NCBI RefSeq assembly: GCF_000011345.1
Contig: NC_004113.1
Location: forward strand, 1,178,001 to 1,242,000
From: Thermosynechococcus vestitus BP-1
GTDB lineage: Bacteria > Cyanobacteriota > Cyanobacteriia > Thermosynechococcales > Thermosynechococcaceae
Length of the DNA stretch: 64,000 nt
Direction: 5' to 3'
Shown: positions 3,816-18,263 of the stretch, piece by piece
How the letters are laid out: each line of letters begins with the position of its first letter
How positions within the stretch are numbered: position 1 is the first letter of the stretch
Program-made: the position numbers and the translations under genes
Notes under the pieces: model-generated
The model's input: the letters and a program-made list of their open reading frames with translations, nothing else
Told to the model about the DNA's origin: nothing
The model's database searches: none

Positions 3816-4209
3816 TCACGTCTTCTGAATCGATTTCTGAATCGATGAGATAGAGATGAATATGCTTATACCCCTGCTGAATTTTGAAGGTATCCCCCGG
3901 CTTGAGATTCATGGCTGTGGTATAGGCAGCACCAATCACAATCTGGCCATTTTGGTGCACCTTAACGCGGTAGGAGGGCGATCGCCCCCGTCCTGATTGA
4001 CTATTGACTTCTTTTTCCGATGAGTGTACTTCTAGTCCCCCGGCAGCGAGTAGTGCTTCGTAAAATTTCCCTAAGTTGACCCGCACCTCACCAGATTTGG
4101 TGACGCGATAGTAGCCACAGAGCTTGGCTGCTTCCTTACGGGAAACACCGTCCAGTTCTTTTAACCGCTGTAGGAGCGCTTTCCCAGTCAGGGGTTTTAT
4201 CTTTCCCAT
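3796..4209 (-). CDS. cyAbrB-type (AbrB-like) transcriptional regulator
   Basis: Cyanobacterial AbrB-like protein of 137 residues. The N-terminal half (GKALLQRLKELDGVSRKEAAKLCGYY) and the C-terminal AbrB-like swapped-hairpin DNA-binding portion (YRVKVHQNGQIVIGAAYTTAMNLKPGDTFKIQ) are typical of the cyAbrB family. Family members act as global regulators of carbon/nitrogen balance and carbon-concentrating genes, which fits the downstream ccmO. The gene leads a three-gene unit with coaX and ccmO. A tandem 18-bp repeat lies about 85 bp upstream (4293-4328) and could be an operator. Whether it is the A or B paralogue cannot be decided from this sequence alone. Confidence 0.88.
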   Translation of the reverse strand: MGKIKPLTGKALLQRLKELDGVSRKEAAKLCGYYRVTKSGEVRVNLGKFYEALLAAGGLEVHSSEKEVNSQSGRGRSPSYRVKVHQNGQIVIGAAYTTAMNLKPGDTFKIQQGYKHIHLYLIDSEIDSEDVNGAPRN

Positions 4210-4637
4210 CCCACTATCATTCCCTTACCAGCAAGCGATTTGAGTGAATTAAGAGACTCAATCTTAATCAACAGGTACCCACACTCGATAGAAAGTTAAC
4301 TTCCCCTTCAAAGTTCACTTCCCCTTGAAAGGCTGTGTTTGCCAAAATTGAGAGTTGACTGATGTCTCTAAGTCAAGTTATCACATCAACTGGAATCTAA
4401 AGTACTATTGTAACAATTTGTTTATTTTATCAAAAAAATTTACTCACAAAAAAATAACTGCAATATTCAGTCACAAGGGTGATTAACAGGGTTATCAACA
4501 ATAAAGGTCATCTAGGTATTATTGATGAGTGATGAAAGCTAATCGTATAGGCTATAGGGAGCCCTCCTCACCCCTGCAAGAAGCGAAAAAGCTGTATAGT
4601 ATCCTTACTTTGCCAATTCTTGGATAGGCAGTTGGCG
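4210..4637. other. AT-rich divergent intergenic region
   Basis: This 428-bp gap separates the minus-strand cyAbrB gene from the plus-strand permease, so it should hold both promoters. It is clearly richer in A and T than its surroundings, with oligo-A/T runs near 4420-4450. It contains the tandem 18-bp repeat annotated separately. A TATAGT hexamer near 4595 is a plausible -10 for the permease gene, but no convincing -35 was found. No open reading frame of note is present. Confidence 0.5.
4293..4328. repeat. tandem 18-bp direct repeat upstream of cyAbrB
   Basis: Two abutting copies, AAGTTAACTTCCCCTTCA (4293-4310) and AAGTTCACTTCCCCTTGA (4311-4328), differ at only two positions. The length is close to two helical turns and the location is upstream of a regulator gene. 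That arrangement is what one would expect of an operator or autoregulatory site, but binding is inferred only. Confidence 0.6.
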
Positions 4638-5774
4638 ATGACTCCTTGGCAAACCCTGCGGCGTAACCCTCTTGTGATGTTCAGTTTGGGGGTGTTGCTG
4701 ACATTGTACCTGCTGGCGATCGCTGCCGATTTTGTCGCACCCTATAGTCCCTATGCGTTTCAGGTAGATGGTGCCCTGCTGCCCCCCACCCGTATTTACT
4801 GGCACACCCCCAATGGTCAGTGGCTTGGGCCCCATGTCTATCCCACTCGCCTAGGCCCTGTGAACTTGGAAACGGGGGAACGGCCTTTGATTGTGGACTG
4901 GCAGGAACCGTCGCCCATTCGCCTATTTGTCAAGGGTAGCCCCTATCGCTTCCTGGAAATTACCCTGCCCCTACCGAAGCGCTGGAGTCTCACCAATGTG
5001 CAAATTGAACCGCGTACGATCTTTGCGGGGTTCCCCAGCGATCGCCACCTGTTTGGCACGGTGGGCAAGGGCTATCTGAACCTGTTGGGAACCGATGACC
5101 AAGGACGCGATCAGCTGAGTCGGCTGCTCTTTGGTGCCCGCATTAGCCTCAGTATTGGGCTTGTGGGGGTGGCGATCGCCTTCCCGATTGGCATTTTGGT
5201 GGGTGCCATTTCCGGCTACTTTGGCGGCTGGCTCGATGCAGTGTTGATGCGGGGTGTTGAGGTGCTGATGACGCTGCCGACCATCTATCTGCTAGTGGCC
5301 TTGGCGGCCGTGCTGCCGGTGGGACTCAGTAGTGGTGAGCGATTCCTGCTGATTACAATTATCACGTCCTTTGTGAGCTGGGCAGGACTGGCGCGGGTCA
5401 TTCGTGGTCAGGTTTTAGGCATTAGGGAAATGGCCTTTGTCCAGGCGGCACAGGTCATGGGGGGGCGATCGCTCTACATTATTGTGCGGCACATTATTCC
5501 CCAAACAGCGACCTACGTAATTATTGCGGCAACGCTCTCAATTCCCAGCTTTATTGTGGCGGAATCGGTGCTCAGTCTCATTGGCTTGGGGATCCAACAG
5601 CCGGATCCCTCCTGGGGGAATATGCTGTCCTTGGCAACCAATGCCTCAATCTTGGTCCTACAGCCCTGGTTAGTCTGGGCACCGGCCACGCTGATTGTGC
5701 TTACGGTGCTGTGTTTCAACATTGTCGGCGATGGTCTGCGGGATGCCCTTGATCCTAAGGGGATACAAAAATAG
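4638..5774 (+). CDS. DppC/OppC-like ABC transporter permease with large insertion
   Basis: Inner-membrane permease of a peptide/nickel-type ABC importer. The first membrane helix is at about residues 12-35. The core of five or so helices has the typical DppC start LLGTDDQGRDQLSRLLFGARISLSIG. The EAA-like loop (VQAAQVMGGRSLYIIVRHIIPQ) contacts the ATPase, and LGIQQPDPSWGNML follows near the C-terminus. At 378 residues it exceeds the usual ~290 because about 110 residues with Tyr/Pro-rich content separate helix 1 from the core; these are probably exposed outside the membrane. ATG at 4638 is chosen; a TTG 18 bp upstream is in frame. Its likely partner permease (DppB type) is 56 kb away at 60.7 kb; no binding protein or ATPase is adjacent. 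Confidence 0.88.
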   Translation: MTPWQTLRRNPLVMFSLGVLLTLYLLAIAADFVAPYSPYAFQVDGALLPPTRIYWHTPNGQWLGPHVYPTRLGPVNLETGERPLIVDWQEPSPIRLFVKGSPYRFLEITLPLPKRWSLTNVQIEPRTIFAGFPSDRHLFGTVGKGYLNLLGTDDQGRDQLSRLLFGARISLSIGLVGVAIAFPIGILVGAISGYFGGWLDAVLMRGVEVLMTLPTIYLLVALAAVLPVGLSSGERFLLITIITSFVSWAGLARVIRGQVLGIREMAFVQAAQVMGGRSLYIIVRHIIPQTATYVIIAATLSIPSFIVAESVLSLIGLGIQQPDPSWGNMLSLATNASILVLQPWLVWAPATLIVLTVLCFNIVGDGLRDALDPKGIQK

Positions 5775-5820
5775 CCAAAACCCTTGGGATACACTAGGGA
5801 GAGATTCTCAGAAGTAGGCT

Positions 5821-7137
5821 TTGACATCCTCCTCCCGCTAAAGCAGGGGGATTCCCAAAATCACTTTTGAGACTTTCTGCTTCTTCGCAGTTGCCCTTTA
5901 GACGTATGTCTATCAGGTCTTACACCCGCTCCACAGACTGTAACCGTGTGTCCCACGGCCAAAATATTCCCAGCGGCATTTATATCCCGATCATGGTGCG
6001 CCCCACACTTAGGACAGTCCCATTCTCGGACGCTCAATGGCAACCGCTCAACAATGTGACCACACTGTCCACAGCGTTTAGAACTGGGAAACCATCGGTC
6101 AATCTTCACCAGTGTCCGACCATACCACTGGGCCTTGTATTCCAATTGCCGTACCAGTTCACCCCATCCAGCATCACTGATGGATCGAGCAAGCTGACGG
6201 TTCTTGACCATGTTTTTCACAGCCAACGACTCGATTACGATCGTTTGGTTTTCACGTATCAATCGAGTCGTCAACTGGTGCAAATGGTCTTTTCTGGAAT
6301 CAGAGATTTTCTGGTGAATCTTGGCAACTTTCAACCGCGCCTTATCCCAATTGCGAGAGCCTTTTTGTTTGCGACTCAAAGACCGCTGCGCCTTACGGAG
6401 TCGTTTGTAGTAGCGGTTAAAGTGCTTGGGGTTGGCAATCTTTTCCCCTGTACTCAGGGTAATGAGACTGCTCATCCCTACGTCCAAACCAACCGACGGG
6501 TCGACGGGCTGCAGTGTCAAATCTCTGGGGTCATCAAACCTCAGACTGATGTACCACTGTCCAGCAGGGTTAAGCCTGATGGTCACGGTGGATGGTTCAA
6601 CACCATCTGGAAGCCGTCTCGACCAGCGAATATTCAGCGGTTCGTTGCACTTTGCCAAGAATACTTTTCCGTCTTTCCACCTAAAAGCAGACTTGGTGAA
6701 TTCTGCGCTACCGCCATTACGTTTCTTTTTGAAGTTGGGATATTTCGCCCGACCTGCAAAAAAGTTAGTGAAAGCAGATTGCAGATGTCTCAATGCCTGC
6801 TGCAAGGGGACAGAGCTAACCTCATTCAAAAACTGGAGGTCATCTTGCTTCTTCCACTGAGTAAGCAAGGCAGAGGTTTGAACGTAGTCAAGTCTCTCTT
6901 TTCGTTCATACCAGGCTTCTGTTCTGGCTGCCAGTGCTCGATTATAAACCAACCGAACACAGCCCAATGTTCTCCGAAGCAGGGATTCCTGCTCGGTCGT
7001 TGGGTAGAAGCGGTAACTGAAAGCCTTTTGCATGCTTTAAATTATAGCGATTATTCTGTGAGTAACACAACTATACTTGGCAGTCATAGACTGCCGCTCC
7101 TATCCCTCCCCTCCCTAAAGGAGGGGGTCTCTCGGAG
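5821..7137 (-). mobile_element. TnpB-only IS200/IS605-family element, copy 1
   Basis: A 1317-bp element, nearly identical to the copy at 22403-23719. Boundaries come from comparing the two copies. On the minus strand the left end follows a TTTAC target and starts CTCCGAGAGACCCC; the right end finishes GGATGTCAA. A hairpin near each end (CCTCCCTAAAGGAGGG, and CCCGCTAAAGCAGGGG) is typical of subterminal IS605-type structures. No tnpA is present, so mobility must depend on a Y1 transposase in trans. By analogy with other TnpB elements, the 3' end of the gene plus the right end should encode an omega RNA; that transcript is inferred. It sits immediately upstream of the gene at 7144. Confidence 0.85.
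5861..7033 (-). CDS. tnpB: TnpB RNA-guided nuclease, element copy 1
   Basis: TnpB of an IS1341-like element, 390 residues, full length. The N-terminal helix-turn-helix region FSYRFYPTTEQE is standard. The RuvC-like residues appear intact: Asp184 in VGLDVGMSSL, Glu268 in TIVIESLAVKNM and Asp350 in HHDRDINAAGN. A zinc finger is formed by Cys321/Cys324 and Cys340/Cys343. TnpB proteins are RNA-guided DNA endonucleases that help retain IS200/IS605 elements. Only 40 bp separate the stop codon from the element end, so the guide RNA scaffold would overlap the C-terminal coding region. The copy at 22443 differs at few residues, so both copies are recent and look functional. Confidence 0.93.
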   Translation of the reverse strand: MQKAFSYRFYPTTEQESLLRRTLGCVRLVYNRALAARTEAWYERKERLDYVQTSALLTQWKKQDDLQFLNEVSSVPLQQALRHLQSAFTNFFAGRAKYPNFKKKRNGGSAEFTKSAFRWKDGKVFLAKCNEPLNIRWSRRLPDGVEPSTVTIRLNPAGQWYISLRFDDPRDLTLQPVDPSVGLDVGMSSLITLSTGEKIANPKHFNRYYKRLRKAQRSLSRKQKGSRNWDKARLKVAKIHQKISDSRKDHLHQLTTRLIRENQTIVIESLAVKNMVKNRQLARSISDAGWGELVRQLEYKAQWYGRTLVKIDRWFPSSKRCGQCGHIVERLPLSVREWDCPKCGAHHDRDINAAGNILAVGHTVTVCGAGVRPDRHTSKGQLRRSRKSQK

Positions 7138-11652: not shown

Positions 11653-12468
11653 TCATTGGCGGGGACGTGCTGATTTTCTCTCCTCAAAGTAACGGAGTTG
11701 TCGCCAACCAACAAAATTCGCGTAGGACTGGCGATCGCCCATACATTCGGCCACGTGCTCTAGGGGAGAGAGGTGCTTCGGTTCTGCTCCCGCCAAGCGC
11801 TCATAGAGGGCAAGATCAGAGGCAGGGTCACTGCGTTGGCCATCCCGCAGATAGTAGGAGACCCGTGCACAACGGGCCACAGACATATACTTGCACTCCT
11901 CAAGACTATATTGCTGGCGCTCAATCGGATCGATGTAGGGTAAGTGCCAATCCCCCACAGCCACAGGCGTGGGTTCATGGGTCTCCAGCAAATGCTGAAT
12001 CAGCTTGGCCAAGGCCTGCATTTCTGGCTGGGCATCGGGGTGATTGCGCAAGCGCAGAAAGTTATCCCACTCGGTACTGCTGACAACCGTTTGCATCCAC
12101 ATCCACGGTTCAAGCATGCGGTTGACCACTTGCTTGTGAATTCCCAGCTCATGGAGCTGGCGTGCCCCCTCAAGAACTGCGAGGCGAGTTTTCAGCCAGA
12201 TTTCCTTTGCCGCTTCCTTTTGTTCACTTTCTTCCCGCGCCTGCATCCCTCGCTGGTTTTTTCCCCAATGGTAGGGAATAACAGGATCCGCCTCCACCTG
12301 CGCCATCATTTTTGTGACGGGTACTGCCCGCGAACTGGCGGAATTGCGAGAAAACACGCGATGGGTGAGGAGTTCACTATGGATAAAGCGGGGATACGTG
12401 AGTTGAAGCGTCACCAAGCGCACCCCTGCTGGCGAAATTGAATCGGCAATGACACGCCCCTCTTGCAT
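11653..12468 (-). CDS. thyX: flavin-dependent thymidylate synthase ThyX
   Basis: Makes dTMP from dUMP using methylene-tetrahydrofolate, FAD and NADPH. The ThyX signature region is present as THRVFSRNSASSRAVP at residues 35-50. It departs from the canonical RHRxxSxNxxSxRY in the first Arg and the last Arg-Tyr, as in the larger ThyX subgroup. Later conserved blocks include VVSSTEWDNFLRLRNHPDAQPEMQ (residues ~128-151), typical for dUMP and FAD contacts, and a histidine-rich C-terminal part (SPLEHVAE). The length of 271 residues is in range. The start ATG is followed at once by the conserved N-terminal strand. No thyA is visible in the window. Confidence 0.88.
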   Translation of the reverse strand: MQEGRVIADSISPAGVRLVTLQLTYPRFIHSELLTHRVFSRNSASSRAVPVTKMMAQVEADPVIPYHWGKNQRGMQAREESEQKEAAKEIWLKTRLAVLEGARQLHELGIHKQVVNRMLEPWMWMQTVVSSTEWDNFLRLRNHPDAQPEMQALAKLIQHLLETHEPTPVAVGDWHLPYIDPIERQQYSLEECKYMSVARCARVSYYLRDGQRSDPASDLALYERLAGAEPKHLSPLEHVAECMGDRQSYANFVGWRQLRYFEERKSARPRQ

Positions 12469-12769
12469 TTTTCTCTCTTCTGAATCTCTGCCTTTTCTAG
12501 GCTAGTGCAAGGGGAACACCGTCCGCTATTTTGCAGAACTTGACTTAGGAAGGTGAATCAGTGCTGTCCTAGCGGCAGTGGTTGGCCGGTCAATCAGCTG
12601 TTCAAGACTGCTGACTCACTTTAATGCAGTCATAAACTTTTGCTAAAGCATTTGGCGCCACTCTTTGAGATGTTATGCTTTTTCTAGGATTTTTCTTGGG
12701 GTTTCCAGCTCAATTCATTACACTAAAAGCTAAAAAACTCACTCAAGCTTTTATCAGTGCGAAACTTCT
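12469..12769. other. divergent intergenic region between thyX and rsbQ-like gene
   Basis: About 300 bp with no credible ORF. It should contain promoters for thyX (minus) and the hydrolase (plus). Within it, at 12631-12651, is one copy of a 21-bp motif centred on TGCTAAAGCA that recurs at 25281-25301. No tRNA or terminator was recognised. Confidence 0.5.
12631..12651. promoter_or_regulatory. shared palindromic motif, site 1
   Basis: AACTTTTGCTAAAGCAT at 12635-12651, with CATA before it, matches 19 of 21 bases at 25281-25301. The core approximates the palindrome TGCTATAGCA. It lies about 120 bp upstream of the RsbQ-like gene, so it may be an operator or promoter element. The regulator is unknown. 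Confidence 0.45.
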
Positions 12770-13594
12770 ATGGAAATTACGAGTCAAGATCCCTGTGTTC
12801 CCGATCCTCTGAAGCCCTACGTCCAGATTGATGGCTGGGGCGAAGTTCCTGTTGTGCTTGGACATGGCTTTGGTACTGATAAAAGCGCTTGGGACTATTT
12901 AACCCCTTTCTTGCCTAAGGGCTTTACCTATATCCGCTATGATCTTGCAGGCTGTGGGTCCGATGAGGATACGCAACACCGCTACGATGTCCAAAGACAC
13001 AGCCATTTGTATGGCTATGCTGATGATCTCATTGAATTGCTGGATCAGCTTGGCGTCCAATCTTGCATCTACGTTGGCCACTCGGTCAGCTGCATGATCG
13101 GTGCCATTGCCGCGATCGCCAGACCGGACTTATTTCGACGACACATCTGGATTGGTCCGTCCCCCTGCTATCTCAAGGATGAGAACTATCCTGGTACCCT
13201 CACCCCCGACGACCTACAGGCCATTTATGAAGCAATGGTGACGAACTATCAAGCATGGGCGGCGGGTTTTGCCCCACTCATGTTTGGGCTGAAGGAGGAG
13301 CACCGGCTCGCCGACTTTTCTCAGACCCTCTTTCGGTTGCAGCCAAGGATTGCCCTGCGCACTCTGCAAATGATTTTTGATTCTGATACTCGCTCTTTTG
13401 TCGGCAAAGTGCAGCAGCCTGTACACCTAATTTTTAACCGCAATGACTTCGTCGTTCCCCAAGGGGTAGCCCTATGGCTACATGCCACCTTGCCCCACAG
13501 TACCCTTGATTGGATCGACGCTCAAGGTCATCTTCCCCACATGACCCATCCCACAGCTGTTGGTTCTTTACTCAAAAAATACATGAGCATATAA
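12770..13594 (+). CDS. rsbQ: RsbQ-like alpha/beta hydrolase (sigma-regulatory/ligand-sensing family)
   Basis: A 274-residue alpha/beta-fold hydrolase that matches RsbQ, the partner of the PAS-phosphatase RsbP in Bacillus energy-stress signalling and a relative of plant strigolactone/karrikin receptors. The nucleophile elbow is GHSVSCMIG with Ser105. The acid is Asp226 in FNRNDFVVP and the base His254 in AQGHLPHMTHP, so the triad is complete. The N-terminal DGWGEVPVVLGHGFGTDKSAW carries the oxyanion region. It is followed, 40 bp downstream and on the same strand, by a PAS-GGDEF protein. The pair therefore resembles rsbQ-rsbP with the phosphatase output exchanged for a diguanylate cyclase. The ligand is unknown. 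Confidence 0.88.
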   Translation: MEITSQDPCVPDPLKPYVQIDGWGEVPVVLGHGFGTDKSAWDYLTPFLPKGFTYIRYDLAGCGSDEDTQHRYDVQRHSHLYGYADDLIELLDQLGVQSCIYVGHSVSCMIGAIAAIARPDLFRRHIWIGPSPCYLKDENYPGTLTPDDLQAIYEAMVTNYQAWAAGFAPLMFGLKEEHRLADFSQTLFRLQPRIALRTLQMIFDSDTRSFVGKVQQPVHLIFNRNDFVVPQGVALWLHATLPHSTLDWIDAQGHLPHMTHPTAVGSLLKKYMSI

Positions 13595-13634
13595 ATATAC
13601 AATCTATTCTGGTACAATCGATTCTGGTTAGGGC

Positions 13635-14966
13635 ATGCTAAAAAAAGTGCAGGAACACCTACCCCGCCAGCTTCTTCCCGCGCCCGATGCTATCACAGCA
13701 TTTTGTCATCTCATTGCCAATTGGTCGCGATCTGAGCTTGTCCTTGCCCTAACTGTTGATCAGCAAGGCAATCGGGCACAAATTATCACCACAACCAGCA
13801 CCAAATTTCCCAATCTGGAAATTATCGCGCCGTGGCGAGATTTAGTTCAGGGGACTGTCATTGATGTGCTGCCTTTTCTCAAACTGCCCTCTATTTTTTT
13901 CTGTCTTTTAAGTAAGGTTGAGCGAATTGTTTACATCCCCTGCGGTGAGCCAGAGAAGTGGTGCCAGGGGCTGCTGCTAGTGAATCCCGTCGAAGAGCCG
14001 CTGCAGCAACTCGCAGAACAGAAAGGCTACATTGCTGCTCTGTACCGGCAACTGTTGATTCATCATCGTCAAAGTCAAAATAGCTTCATCTTTGAAGCGC
14101 AATTCCAAGATATTTTCGACACAGTGCCGCTGGGCTTGGTTTTAATCAAGGGGGATAGCTCTACAGCAATGGTCAATTCCTACGCTGCTCAATGGCTACA
14201 ACTGCCACCGGGGAGCCATCCAGTTCAGATTGTTGCTGAGCATATGAAACAGGGGTGGGAGAGATGCGATAACTGCGATGAGTTGGTCAACCTTTTTCAA
14301 GGGCTGGCTGCTAATGCCAACTTCAGTGCTCAAGGGGAGTGTCGGAGGGGTGAGAAAACATTTCTCATTGATACCCACCCGGTGCGTGGCGACAGTCGCC
14401 TAGGGCGCGTGTGGATCTTTTCTGACATCAGTGATATGCGTCAGCGGGAGCAAGCACTTCTGGCTCTGGCTTGGTTAGATCCCCTCACTGGCGCTTTCAA
14501 TCGCCGCTTTCTATTGAGTCGAGTTGAGGCTTATGAGTCCCAAGCCGCTACGGGAGAAGCCCTGCTCACGGTCATGATTTTTGACATTGATCACTTTAAG
14601 CGCATTAATGATACCTATGGTCACGATCAGGGGGATGTGGTTCTGCGCACCTTGGCGGCAAGGGCAAAGCAGGTATTAGAGAGCTGCCAAGACGGCATTT
14701 TGGTACGCTGGGGAGGCGAGGAATTTGTCCTGTTGTTTTTTGTTGCCTACGAAGACCAGGCGAAAGCAGTTGCCGAGGAACTGTGCTCAGTGGTGAGAAG
14801 CCAGCCTGTGGAACTCACAGATCAGTATTCTTTGTCTGTGACAATTAGTTTAGGCGTCACTCTGTTTAGAGGGGGGGAACAGGTGCTCAGTGACTCCATT
14901 CCTCGTGCTGATCAAGCTTTGTATGAGGCGAAACATGGGGGGCGCGATCGCTGGGTGTGGGCATAG
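13635..14966 (+). CDS. diguanylate cyclase with PAS-like sensor domain
   Basis: A 443-residue signalling protein. Residues ~1-130 form a GAF-like or unassigned sensor region. Residues ~155-270 are PAS-like (FQDIFDTVPLGLVLIKGDSS, then HPVRGDSRLGRVWIFSDISDMRQREQ). The GGDEF domain (about 278-440) starts LAWLDPLTGAFNRRFL and carries the active site RWGGEEFV at 358-365 plus FDIDHFKRINDTYGHDQGD, all consistent with c-di-GMP synthesis from GTP. No RxxD inhibitory site precedes GGEEF; the corresponding residues are Ser-Cys-Gln-Asp. The position behind the RsbQ-like gene suggests the hydrolase delivers or senses a ligand for the PAS domain. Confidence 0.9.
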   Translation: MLKKVQEHLPRQLLPAPDAITAFCHLIANWSRSELVLALTVDQQGNRAQIITTTSTKFPNLEIIAPWRDLVQGTVIDVLPFLKLPSIFFCLLSKVERIVYIPCGEPEKWCQGLLLVNPVEEPLQQLAEQKGYIAALYRQLLIHHRQSQNSFIFEAQFQDIFDTVPLGLVLIKGDSSTAMVNSYAAQWLQLPPGSHPVQIVAEHMKQGWERCDNCDELVNLFQGLAANANFSAQGECRRGEKTFLIDTHPVRGDSRLGRVWIFSDISDMRQREQALLALAWLDPLTGAFNRRFLLSRVEAYESQAATGEALLTVMIFDIDHFKRINDTYGHDQGDVVLRTLAARAKQVLESCQDGILVRWGGEEFVLLFFVAYEDQAKAVAEELCSVVRSQPVELTDQYSLSVTISLGVTLFRGGEQVLSDSIPRADQALYEAKHGGRDRWVWA

Positions 14967-15071
14967 ACCCCATCCCTTTTGGGAACTGGTCCGACCGCTG
15001 GGAAACAATGTTAAGGTAGCCGTGTCTAAAAAGATGACTTTTAAGTAGTTGACGACGGTCATTGACCTGCC

Positions 15072-18000
15072 ATGACCTCCCCACCCTTTAGTTTTAGCCG
15101 CTTGGCGGTGACCCGCCACATCGGCACCCTGATGCTGACCCTGACAGTCATTGTTTTGGCGGTCTTTACCCTTTTGCGTTTGCAAGTGGATCTACTGCCG
15201 GGGATTACCTACCCGCGCATTGGTGTACGGCTGGATATTCCGGGGGTGGTGCCTAGTGTTGCTGTTGAGGAGGTGACCAAGCCCCTTGAGGAAGCCCTGA
15301 GTCGCACGGAGGGAGTGGTGCAGGTCTATTCCCAAACCCGTGAAGGGCAAGTCAGTATTGACCTATTTTTTGAACCCGGTGGCGATGTTGATCAAGCCCT
15401 AAATGAGGCCACCGCTGCCTTTAACCGTGCCCGCAGTACCTTGCCCGATATGATTGAGTCGCCGCGACTCTTTAAGTTTGATCCATCGCAATTGCCGGTT
15501 TATGAGTTTGCCCTGACCTCTGAAACCCTCAGTGGCCGCAAGTTACGGGTCTTTGCTGATGAGGATTTGGATCGCGAACTCAGTATCGTCCCTGGTGTGG
15601 CAGGAGTGGATGTCTCCGGGGGGACAACCGAAGAAGTGCGAATTCTTGTGGATCTGGATCGATTGCAGGCCACAGGGGTGGGGTTGAACCAAATTTTAAC
15701 GGCGCTGAGCGATCGCAACCAAGATGTCTCAGGCGGACGTATTCGCGGCCAAAGCGCAGAACCCTTAACACGAACGGTGGGGCGCTTTCACAATCTCAGT
15801 GAAATTGAGGATGTGGTACTCACGGGCACCAATGGTCAGCGGGTCTATCTGCGGGATGTGGCACAAGTTGTCGATGGTAGTGCCGAACAACGGGTATTTG
15901 TGACGCTCAATGGCCAACCCGCCGTTAAAGTCAGCATTTTCAAGCAACCGACAGCCAATACGGTGGAAGTAGCCGATGGGATCAAGCGGCGTTTAGCGGA
16001 GCTACAGGCAGCAAATCTCGTGCCCCGCGATGTGCAGATGATTCCTGTCCTGGATGAGTCGGTTTATATCCGCAACTCCTTAAACAATGTGATCACCGCA
16101 GGCTTGACGGGAACCCTCTTGGCGGCGATCGCTGTGCTGCTGTTTCTTGGTTCGGTACGGCAAACCCTGATTATTGTGCTGGCCATTCCCCTATCTACGA
16201 TGGCGGCAATGCTGCTGATGGGGCTATTTAATTTCTCCCTCAATGTTTTTAGCTTGGGTGGCCTCGCGCTCGGGGTTGGCATTGTCGTAGATAACGCCAT
16301 CGTGATGTTAGAAACTTTGGCGGATATTGACCCTCAGCAGATGAGCCAAGAACAGTACCTGGAGGAGATGAAACGGCGCAGCCAAGGTATTGAATCAGCC
16401 CTTGTAGCATCTACCCTCACCAACTTGGTTGCCATTTTGCCTTTTTTGTTGTTAGGGGGCTTGCTTGCACTGCTCTTTAATGAGTTGATTCTAACGATTA
16501 GTTTTGCCGTTGCCGCATCGCTGCTGGTGGCACTCACGGTGGTGCCGGCCTTGGCCTCTCGCCTTTTGGCGGTACGGGTGCAAAATCGCCTACGGCAGGT
16601 GGCCTTGATTCGCCTTTTTAATGAAAAGTTCCTCTGGCTGAGAGGACGCTATGAATGGGCCTTGGGGCAGGTGCTGCGGGCGCGCTGGCTAGTGGTTGGG
16701 CTGGCGATCGCTCTCCTTGGCGGCAGCAGTTGGCTTTTGGCTCAGGAAATTCCCCAAGAGTTACTACCACGCATTAATACTGGTCAAGTCAACCTAACGG
16801 CCATTTTTCCCCCTGGGACACCCCTGCCCCAAAGTCGCCGTGTCATGGCGGCAGTGGATGAGGTACTAATGGCCCAACCGGGAACTAAGGCCGTCTTTAC
16901 CACCACTGGGGGTGCCCTCTTTGGCACGAATACCATTGCCAATCCGCTGCGAGCCAATAGCACCATTATTCTGCGGCATGGTGTTAATGTGGATCGCTAC
17001 ATTACAGAGGCCACAACAGCCCTTGATCAACTGAACCTTGTGGGGGTGCGGCTGCGCCTGCGTCCCGGCCAAGTGCGGGGGATTATTCTCACCAACTCCC
17101 CCGTGCGCGGTGCCGATGTGGATGTGATCCTACGGGGCAGCGATGAAGAGACCCTGAGCCGCTTTGGTCGCCAAGTGCTGCGAGTTCTTGATGAAAAGGC
17201 CACATTAGTGCGCTTCCGTCCCGATGCCGATCCTCGTCAGCCCGAAATTCAAATTCTGCCGGATTGGGAGCGGGTGAGCGAACTCGGGCTGAACACCCTC
17301 AATCTTGGCCAGACGATTCAAACAGCTTTGACGGGGTTTGTGCCAACGCGGCTGCAACGGGGCGATCGCCTAGTCGATATTCGCGTCCAACTGAGCAGTG
17401 AGAGCATCCAAAACCCTGCCGACCTAGCCACAATTCCCCTTTTTAGCGCCAATAACCGTCCCCTCCGCCTTGGGGATGTCGCTCACATCGAACCCAGTCA
17501 AGCACCGGCGGAAATTCAGCGGATCAATCGGCAACAGGTCTTTATCCTAGCGGGTAATCTGGTCGAAGGTGCCAGTCTCAGTGCAGCTCTTGCTGAGATC
17601 AACGCCATTGTGAGGGCGCTGGAGTTCCCGCCGGGGGTGTCCCTGATGCCCAGTACAGCAGCTCAAGCCAATCAGCAATTGCAACAGGCCTTGGGGGTCC
17701 TGGGCGGTTTGGCGGCCTTTCTCGTGTTTGTGGTCATGGCGGTACAGTACAACTCCCTGCTTGACCCCCTAGTGATTATGTTTACGATTCCCTTGGCTCT
17801 CGCCGGTGGCATTTGGGGCTTGTACCTGACACGGACAGCCATTGGCGCCACGGTGATTGTCGGTGCCATTTTACTCGTGGGGATTGTCGTCAACAATGCC
17901 ATCATCATGGTCGAACTGGCCAACGAAATTTACCAGCAGGAGGGCTGTAGCCGTAGCCAAGCCATTCGCAAAGCTGCCCCTGCCCGTCTGCGCCCAATAA

Positions 18001-18263
18001 TGATGACCACGATTACAACAGTGGTGGGCATGTTCCCCTTGGCATTGGGGCTAGGCGAAGGCTCAGAATTTTTGCAGCCCCTTGGCATTGTTGTGTTTTC
18101 TGGCTTGGCTGTGGCAACACTGCTCACCCTCTTTCTCATTCCCTGTTTTTATGTAATTCTGCATGGCTTTGAGCGTACTGGCCACCGTCGTCTTCCTGCG
18201 CCCTTGCCAGCACCCGCTGTTCCCCCAACAGGTGCCTCCCCTGAGGAGCTTCAGGAACACTAA
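15072..18263 (+). CDS. RND-family efflux transporter (AcrB/HAE1-like)
   Basis: A full-length 1063-residue resistance-nodulation-division pump. Twelve membrane helices are arranged as 1+5 and 1+5, with two large periplasmic loops (about residues 35-330 and 560-860). The N-terminus (PPFSFSRLAVTRHIGTLM) and the sequence GGLALGVGIVVDNAIVMLE in TM4, where proton-relay acids reside, are typical. The second half repeats this as VGAILLVGIVVNNAIIMVE, lacking the Asp. Drug or amphiphile export driven by protons is the family role. No membrane-fusion (HlyD) or outer-membrane gene is adjacent, so those partners must lie elsewhere. The gene is followed directly by a decayed ABC ATPase gene. Confidence 0.93.
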   Translation: MTSPPFSFSRLAVTRHIGTLMLTLTVIVLAVFTLLRLQVDLLPGITYPRIGVRLDIPGVVPSVAVEEVTKPLEEALSRTEGVVQVYSQTREGQVSIDLFFEPGGDVDQALNEATAAFNRARSTLPDMIESPRLFKFDPSQLPVYEFALTSETLSGRKLRVFADEDLDRELSIVPGVAGVDVSGGTTEEVRILVDLDRLQATGVGLNQILTALSDRNQDVSGGRIRGQSAEPLTRTVGRFHNLSEIEDVVLTGTNGQRVYLRDVAQVVDGSAEQRVFVTLNGQPAVKVSIFKQPTANTVEVADGIKRRLAELQAANLVPRDVQMIPVLDESVYIRNSLNNVITAGLTGTLLAAIAVLLFLGSVRQTLIIVLAIPLSTMAAMLLMGLFNFSLNVFSLGGLALGVGIVVDNAIVMLETLADIDPQQMSQEQYLEEMKRRSQGIESALVASTLTNLVAILPFLLLGGLLALLFNELILTISFAVAASLLVALTVVPALASRLLAVRVQNRLRQVALIRLFNEKFLWLRGRYEWALGQVLRARWLVVGLAIALLGGSSWLLAQEIPQELLPRINTGQVNLTAIFPPGTPLPQSRRVMAAVDEVLMAQPGTKAVFTTTGGALFGTNTIANPLRANSTIILRHGVNVDRYITEATTALDQLNLVGVRLRLRPGQVRGIILTNSPVRGADVDVILRGSDEETLSRFGRQVLRVLDEKATLVRFRPDADPRQPEIQILPDWERVSELGLNTLNLGQTIQTALTGFVPTRLQRGDRLVDIRVQLSSESIQNPADLATIPLFSANNRPLRLGDVAHIEPSQAPAEIQRINRQQVFILAGNLVEGASLSAALAEINAIVRALEFPPGVSLMPSTAAQANQQLQQALGVLGGLAAFLVFVVMAVQYNSLLDPLVIMFTIPLALAGGIWGLYLTRTAIGATVIVGAILLVGIVVNNAIIMVELANEIYQQEGCSRSQAIRKAAPARLRPIMMTTITTVVGMFPLALGLGEGSEFLQPLGIVVFSGLAVATLLTLFLIPCFYVILHGFERTGHRRLPAPLPAPAVPPTGASPEELQEH

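Follow-up and report, generated by a model that had tools for sequence, protein, structure and literature searches.

In the window, which is the whole analysed stretch of 64,000 nucleotides from Thermosynechococcus vestitus BP-1, an alpha/beta hydrolase gene lies directly upstream of, and on the same strand as, a gene encoding a diguanylate cyclase with a PAS domain, with 40 bp between them (Table 1). Both ORFs, in this order, were found where the sequence-only reading of this DNA had placed them. Their Pfam matches are Abhydrolase_1 (4e-18) and GGDEF (1.2e-37), with PAS detected only at an E value of 0.0085, which fails to reach the Pfam cut-off. A consensus scan of positions 12300-15300 found no terminator-like site on the + strand of the gap. 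Nine GGDEF places above the Pfam cut-off match the tlr/tll genes of Enomoto et al. (2018) in strand and order, and a line through the other eight places predicts gene number 1153 for the cyclase place, with residuals of at most 5.3. From this shared order and strand we infer that the cyclase gene corresponds to tlr1158; by gene order, tlr1157 is then presumably the hydrolase gene.

Table 1. Features of the hydrolase-cyclase locus and its two neighbours, in window positions
Feature	Position	Strand	Evidence
Conserved upstream neighbour, which we take to be ThyX-like; borders the empty site and lies outside the system	11653..12468	-	
KAI2-side alpha/beta hydrolase gene, 274 aa	12770..13594	+	ORF list, Pfam, BLASTP, tree
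Ser105 codon, nucleophile within GHSVS	13082..13084	+	
Asp226 codon	13445..13447	+	
His254 codon	13529..13531	+	
Intergenic gap, 40 bp, hydrolase to cyclase	13595..13634	+	
PAS-diguanylate cyclase gene, 443 aa	13635..14966	+	ORF list, Pfam
Cyclase N-terminal region, ~155 aa	13635..14099	+	Pfam: no match
Type-B (KAI2-partner class) PAS domain, C-terminal end GRVWIFSDIS	14100..14441	+	
GGDEF domain	14469..14951	+	Pfam
CQDG tetrad at the I-site position, no RxxD	14685..14696	+	
GGEEF catalytic motif	14712..14726	+	
Conserved downstream neighbour, presumably an RND-type transporter; borders the empty site and lies outside the system	15072..18263	+	

Within the genus, both genes are present in 6 of 11 genomes and neither is present in the other 5, two of which are drafts with 90-92% completeness. 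At the empty site of G006 the flanking genes are 429 bp apart with no pair, and in the window they are spaced 301 and 105 bp from the pair. On the thyX tree, the pair-lacking genomes G006, G007, and G009 nest among the carriers, which indicates that the pair was lost or exchanged as a unit; the outgroup genomes G003 and G010 also lack it. The GC content of the pair is 0.51, compared with 0.55 to 0.56 for three neighbours and 0.53 for the window. Against four orthologues, dN/dS ranges from 0.08 to 0.14 for the hydrolase and from 0.12 to 0.23 for the cyclase. The all-or-none presence in the genus and the low dN/dS show that the pair is more than a chance arrangement. One metagenome-assembled genome carries a cyclase gene interrupted by a frame change inside the PAS region (L004 6829-8168, G008:C87), through either assembly error or decay. 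This frameshifted copy was left out of the PAS rows and the dN/dS comparison.

The hydrolase and its place in the RsbQ/KAI2 group

Nadezhdin, Brody and Price (2011) described, in the accessible text of their paper, 45 pairs of RsbQ and RsbP-PAS with phosphatase, histidine kinase, or diguanylate cyclase outputs, all from organo-heterotrophs (PMC3183031). The idea of the sequence-only reading, a hydrolase-PAS pair acting on c-di-GMP, was therefore already known in kind. That reading had also named a complete Ser105-Asp226-His254 triad, and residues 105, 226, and 254 are indeed Ser, Asp, and His; the corresponding columns are invariant across the 46 hydrolases aligned, of which the window's is one. 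The closest relative of the window hydrolase outside the genus is encoded on a Novosphingobium plasmid (49.6% identity by BLASTP). The same comparison gives the window hydrolase an identity of 42.6% with PpKAI2-like C, 39.1% with AtD14, and 32.3% with Bacillus subtilis RsbQ. Ten cyanobacterial hydrolases of type A, the RsbQ/RsbP-PAS type, are 56 to 63% identical to B. subtilis RsbQ. Among solved structures, the window hydrolase matches PpKAI2-like C best (E value of 1.1e-64).

A 45-row hydrolase tree, drawn from the RsbQ side and thus unrooted because no usable outgroup was available, separates an RsbQ side from a KAI2 side with support of 100/100. On the RsbQ side are RsbQ itself and the hydrolases whose partners are of the RsbP type. 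The KAI2 side holds Thermosynechococcus, two sphingomonads, plant KAI2/D14, two sets from other cyanobacteria (one whose partners are of type B and one of orphans), and the hydrolase L100 of Azospirillum. Within it, the window's genus groups with Novosphingobium (99/98), and these join plant KAI2/D14 and Sphingosinicella (94/88). The narrower sets holding the plant rows, which include 7ukb (organism not displayed, 76% identical to AtD14), have support of 98/95 and 94/88, whereas a plant clade as sister to Thermosynechococcus plus Novosphingobium has only 83/35. The branches of L100, L104, L079, and L097 are long, the truncated L080_Q is absent from both trees, and the hydrolase of L103 is in neither. 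Two paralogues tried as an outgroup were dropped, with a branch length of 10 and one of them a 118-aa fragment. Twelve alignment columns, selected by rule with the orphan clade and L100 excluded from the KAI2-side rows and L104 and L080 from the RsbQ-side rows, separate the two sides. These side-specific columns, including Gly166-Phe167 of the GFAPL stretch at 166-170, are common to the window hydrolase and the plant proteins. The label "RsbQ-like" given by the sequence-only reading needs correcting in that the hydrolase is not an RsbQ proper. The link that it drew to plant strigolactone and karrikin receptors is borne out by the tree and by the identity to PpKAI2-like C. Judged by its sequence, the window hydrolase sits on the KAI2/D14 side.

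The PAS and GGDEF domains of the cyclase

The PAS domains were scored for ten RsbP-PAS hallmarks, namely, C10, L13, L48, Q53, F55, C56, Y59, E72, and P86 from the 2011 paper plus P62, which were mapped by their spacing from Cys10, and for the absence of a DIT motif. The window PAS domain has 2 of the 10 hallmarks and ends in a DIT-like SDIS, and the Thermosynechococcus domains have 0 to 2. Twelve domains, comprising 5 from Thermosynechococcus, 6 linked to kinases or cyclases in other cyanobacteria, and 1 from Sphingosinicella, score 0 to 3 and all have the DIT-like end. In contrast, 17 type-A domains, grouped after their sequences had been read, score 8 to 10 and none has this end; the hydrolases of 15 of these 17 are in the tree, and all fall on the RsbQ side. 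The window domain begins near residue 156 and hence is not N-terminal, unlike the RsbP-PAS module.

Profile comparisons gave the Thermosynechococcus PAS domain a probability of 98.2% with six other cyanobacterial type-B domains, which upholds the earlier call of a PAS-like region, 78.9% with Sphingosinicella, and 27.9% with RsbP-PAS. Against 20 other PAS matches of its own genome the Thermosynechococcus profile reached at most 0.3%, whereas the RsbP-PAS profile reached up to 81.9%, and its 27.9% with the Thermosynechococcus domain therefore means little. These 20 controls compare a single sequence with a profile, which is weaker than comparing two profiles, although a single Sphingosinicella sequence still reached 79% and 95%. 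None of 150 column shuffles matched the remote similarity between the window PAS and RsbP-PAS. On these sequence comparisons, the window PAS is placed outside the RsbP class, in a separate second class, type B. The RsbP-PAS contact residues are not conserved in it, so the known RsbQ-PAS interface is not transferable. Omitted rows were L082 and L065 from A2, L082 from A3, and L066 and L082 from A4.

The N-terminal region of Tlr1158, about 155 aa, occupies the position of the GAF domain in histidine kinase relatives, a likeness of position, and Pfam found no GAF match there in the window or in the whole proteins L083, L084, and L097. GAF_2 was matched by 5 of 10 A4 members (best 3.4e-6), a count equal to that of the kinase-linked rows in A4, with the matching members unnamed, and L184 and L190, both kinase-linked, passed the cut-off for it. 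When the Thermosynechococcus and kinase-linked N termini were compared, 16 of 150 shuffles scored equally high, as did 43 of 200 in a second run in which the start-motif expression had dropped 11 of the 22 rows. Against Novosphingobium, equally high shuffles numbered 12 of 500 for the window and 0 of 500 for G005, and for one target an N-terminal model reached 6e-7 with Novosphingobium. The cyclase of G005 (L084) is 59% identical to the window's in the N-terminal region, which is the least conserved part, and 83% in GGDEF, and its input region has undergone either fast change or exchange. A predicted structure of Tlr1158, with a pLDDT of 34 and built on a two-row alignment, was set aside.

The GGDEF domain has an intact catalytic motif, and the tetrad in place of RxxD agrees with the earlier statement that an I-site is lacking. 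RxxD is absent from the five intact Thermosynechococcus copies, the window's included, and from the L004 fragment, and it is present in the type-B cyclases of Novosphingobium and Sphingosinicella. Since these sphingomonad relatives keep RxxD, the absent product brake is a feature of Thermosynechococcus among the type-B cyclases seen. Tlr1158 of Thermosynechococcus vulcanus corresponds to the window gene in order and strand, with the catalytic residues kept and no RxxD: according to the accessible text of Enomoto et al. (2018), every GGDEF domain except that of SesB retains the residues required for activity, and Tlr1158 is not listed among the RxxD proteins (PMC5871770). According to the same text, disruption of tlr1158 left aggregation unchanged at 31°C under blue or teal-green light, and its mRNA was 3.2 ± 1.4 and 6.1 ± 4.7 times the 45°C level, a rise common to the other nine c-di-GMP genes (PMC5871770). 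The term RsbQ is never used in the main text of that paper. In T. vulcanus, the direction of phototaxis depends on c-di-GMP (PMC9090330).

Distribution of the pairing outside Thermosynechococcus

An 11-row alignment of the N-terminal region and PAS (A3) was searched in 386 cyanobacterial genomes; in the genome searches at most 6 candidates per genome were scored. It matched at 1e-4 in 22 genomes and strongly (E value of ≤8.7e-83) in 8, with the next gene at 1.6e-7. All eight strong places lie directly downstream of a KAI2-side hydrolase gene. Because seven of them were training rows, a second sample of 388 genomes of the class was searched, giving a match at 1e-10 in 28 genomes. At 19 strong held-out places, which are neither training rows nor members of the genus, a KAI2-side hydrolase gene is directly upstream in 17 (a fragmentary one in G570 included); the exceptions are one gene without a hydrolase, a second copy in G048, and one place undecidable at a contig end. 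Fifteen of these 17 held-out pairs share one spacing, with the earliest possible start codon of the PAS gene exactly 16 nt upstream of the hydrolase gene's end, and such a fixed overlap would fit translational coupling. The pairing spans two sphingomonads and, within the class sample, eight cyanobacterial families, so that the neighbourhood survey proposed by the sequence-only reading finds the pair conserved well past this strain. The G048 copy (L185, G048:C31) is a type-B PAS histidine kinase with no hydrolase within 9 kb, and the same genome has a complete pair elsewhere.

Among ten held-out type-B proteins scanned for outputs, nine are histidine or hybrid kinases and the tenth, at a contig end, has only PAS and GAF; a kinase H-box is present in 7 of 8 further type-B proteins. 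The first six type-B cyanobacterial proteins include five hybrid kinases and one class III nucleotide cyclase (L066). GGDEF outputs among type-B units were seen only in Thermosynechococcus, Sphingosinicella, and Novosphingobium. In L066 (cyanobacterium G091, 4136-6466), a KAI2-side hydrolase is followed by a type-B PAS protein with a C-terminal adenylate/guanylate cyclase domain (8.4e-64); the 2011 paper does not have this output among its three classes.

Seventy-three plasmid records had a hydrolase match, and the neighbourhoods of 12 were inspected. On the Novosphingobium plasmid pP6W2 (L096/L114), the gene table has no gene directly downstream of the hydrolase, presumably because the partner gene crosses the record start. 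Read across that start, its frame opens with GTG and overlaps the hydrolase stop by 4 nt; the product scores 127 bits with A3, its PAS shares 39% identity with that of the window across 111 residues, and it has GGEEF. This partner was part of no alignment and thus served as a blind check. On the Sphingosinicella plasmid p1 (L097), the partner frame opens with ATG 17 nt inside the hydrolase gene, and its annotated start is probably 306 nt too late. Both sphingomonad plasmids are typed as mobilizable.

The 23 cyanobacterial hydrolase places sorted comprise 4 from Thermosynechococcus, 4 from the other type-B set, 9 of RsbQ proper, and 6 of the orphan clade. A KAI2-side hydrolase does not always imply a type-B partner, as seen in the orphan clade and in L100 on an Azospirillum plasmid, which has none. 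In the orphan clade (L064, L071, L073, L075, L078, and L079), no PAS gene was seen directly downstream, and photolyase or saccharopine dehydrogenase genes come next in some. Cyanobacterial pairs of the RsbQ/RsbP-PAS type are L061, L062, L063, L069, L070, L074, L076, L077, and L080, with GGDEF or histidine kinase outputs and hydrolases sharing 57 to 63% identity with B. subtilis RsbQ; the pair of L080 looks broken. On a Hymenobacter volaticus plasmid (L098), an RsbQ-side hydrolase stands beside a BLUF-domain gene on the opposite strand, with no PAS partner annotated directly downstream.

A candidate receptor unit and its alternatives

Plant KAI2 and D14 are ligand-perceiving receptors with slow hydrolysis, and their partners are an F-box protein and SMXL. 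The window system differs from them in being bacterial and in having a PAS signalling protein as the partner. We consider it probable that Tlr1157 and Tlr1158 form a two-gene sensory unit of type B, in which a KAI2/D14-side hydrolase is coupled one-to-one with a type-B PAS protein. Tlr1157 would bind, and perhaps hydrolyse, a small hydrophobic molecule, and the loaded hydrolase would contact the PAS domain of Tlr1158; this contact would alter the GGDEF dimer geometry and thereby tie c-di-GMP output to the ligand. Because the I-site is missing, that output would lack the product brake. We infer the physical contact, the ligand, a receptor rather than metabolic role, and the sign of the effect from analogy. 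RsbQ contacts its PAS domain directly by experiment in the sister class (PMC3183031), and this contact, together with ligand perception by KAI2/D14, makes a receptor hydrolase with the PAS domain as its docking partner the most likely arrangement. A modular receptor would be expected to leave such a trace, a hydrolase with conserved coupling to its own PAS class while the output varies from GGDEF to hybrid kinase to class III cyclase. Several observations weigh against this explanation, namely, the unchanged aggregation after tlr1158 disruption, the KAI2-side orphans, the 1 of 18 decidable held-out PAS genes that has no hydrolase, the five genus members without the pair, and the RsbP-PAS contact residues that this PAS does not conserve. 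Nothing was found that supports the energy-stress input suggested earlier, and a literature search turned up no data on contact between Tlr1157 and Tlr1158, on a ligand, or on c-di-GMP for this pair.

The pair might instead be an ordinary, merely diverged member of the RsbQ/RsbP-PAS module with a diguanylate cyclase output, which we regard as unlikely. The two share a gene order and logic, a hydrolase gene of the RsbQ/KAI2 group directly upstream of a PAS protein with a kinase or diguanylate cyclase output, and the remote PAS similarity was equalled by no shuffle. The module described in the accessible text of PMC3183031 differs, however, in the side of the split on which its hydrolase lies, in the hallmarks and ending of its PAS domain, and in the N-terminal position of that domain; the profile score that joins the two is no higher than those of RsbP-PAS with several unrelated PAS domains of the genome, and type-A pairs with GGDEF output occur alongside in other cyanobacteria. 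As far as the sequences go, this explanation is contradicted by the tree and the hallmark tests. A hydrolase acting as an enzyme that makes or destroys a small molecule sensed by the Tlr1158 PAS domain (Model 1 of the 2011 paper) is somewhat less improbable, though still well behind in our estimate. It is favoured by the invariant triad and by the need of RsbQ signalling for its catalytic triad (PMC3183031), and overlaps of 16 or 4 nt fit a one-to-one supply in which contact is not required; against it are the slow hydrolysis of the KAI2/D14 kin as receptors and the lack of any known PAS ligand. That the two genes merely travel together with no functional tie seems very improbable. The patchy presence in the genus, the lower GC content than that of the neighbours and the window, and the mobilizable plasmids point that way, but pairing across cyanobacterial families and sphingomonads with varied output domains and a fixed overlap speaks against it.

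What is new, beside the two-gene sensory unit proposed here for Tlr1157-Tlr1158, is a second class of a hydrolase-PAS module that was itself already known. A search starting from RsbP-PAS, as in 2011, would probably miss type B, and the pair is easily misfiled as RsbQ, which is corrected here. The literature search found nothing joining karrikin with a diguanylate cyclase, and bacterial KAI2-side hydrolases may have been noticed earlier. A bacterial origin of KAI2 was reportedly the subject of Wang et al. in 2022.

The pair offers a compact and presumably thermostable candidate receptor-effector unit whose output can be measured; its cyanobacterial host is genetically tractable and has few c-di-GMP genes, and natural variants with other outputs are at hand. 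More tentatively, and with the balance of our judgement against it, bacteria may own a KAI2-type receptor system, in which KAI2/D14-side hydrolases act as ligand receptors through type-B PAS proteins with swappable outputs (c-di-GMP synthesis, phosphorelay, or a class III cyclase). Plant karrikin and strigolactone receptors could then be descendants of such a receptor, or have a common ancestor with it, with only the partner exchanged, and the bacterial ligand may relate to the KAI2 ligand. Its position next to the plant receptors gives the finding real interest, as the role and signalling partners of the bacterial kin of KAI2/D14 bear on the origin of strigolactone and karrikin perception and on the KAI2 ligand.
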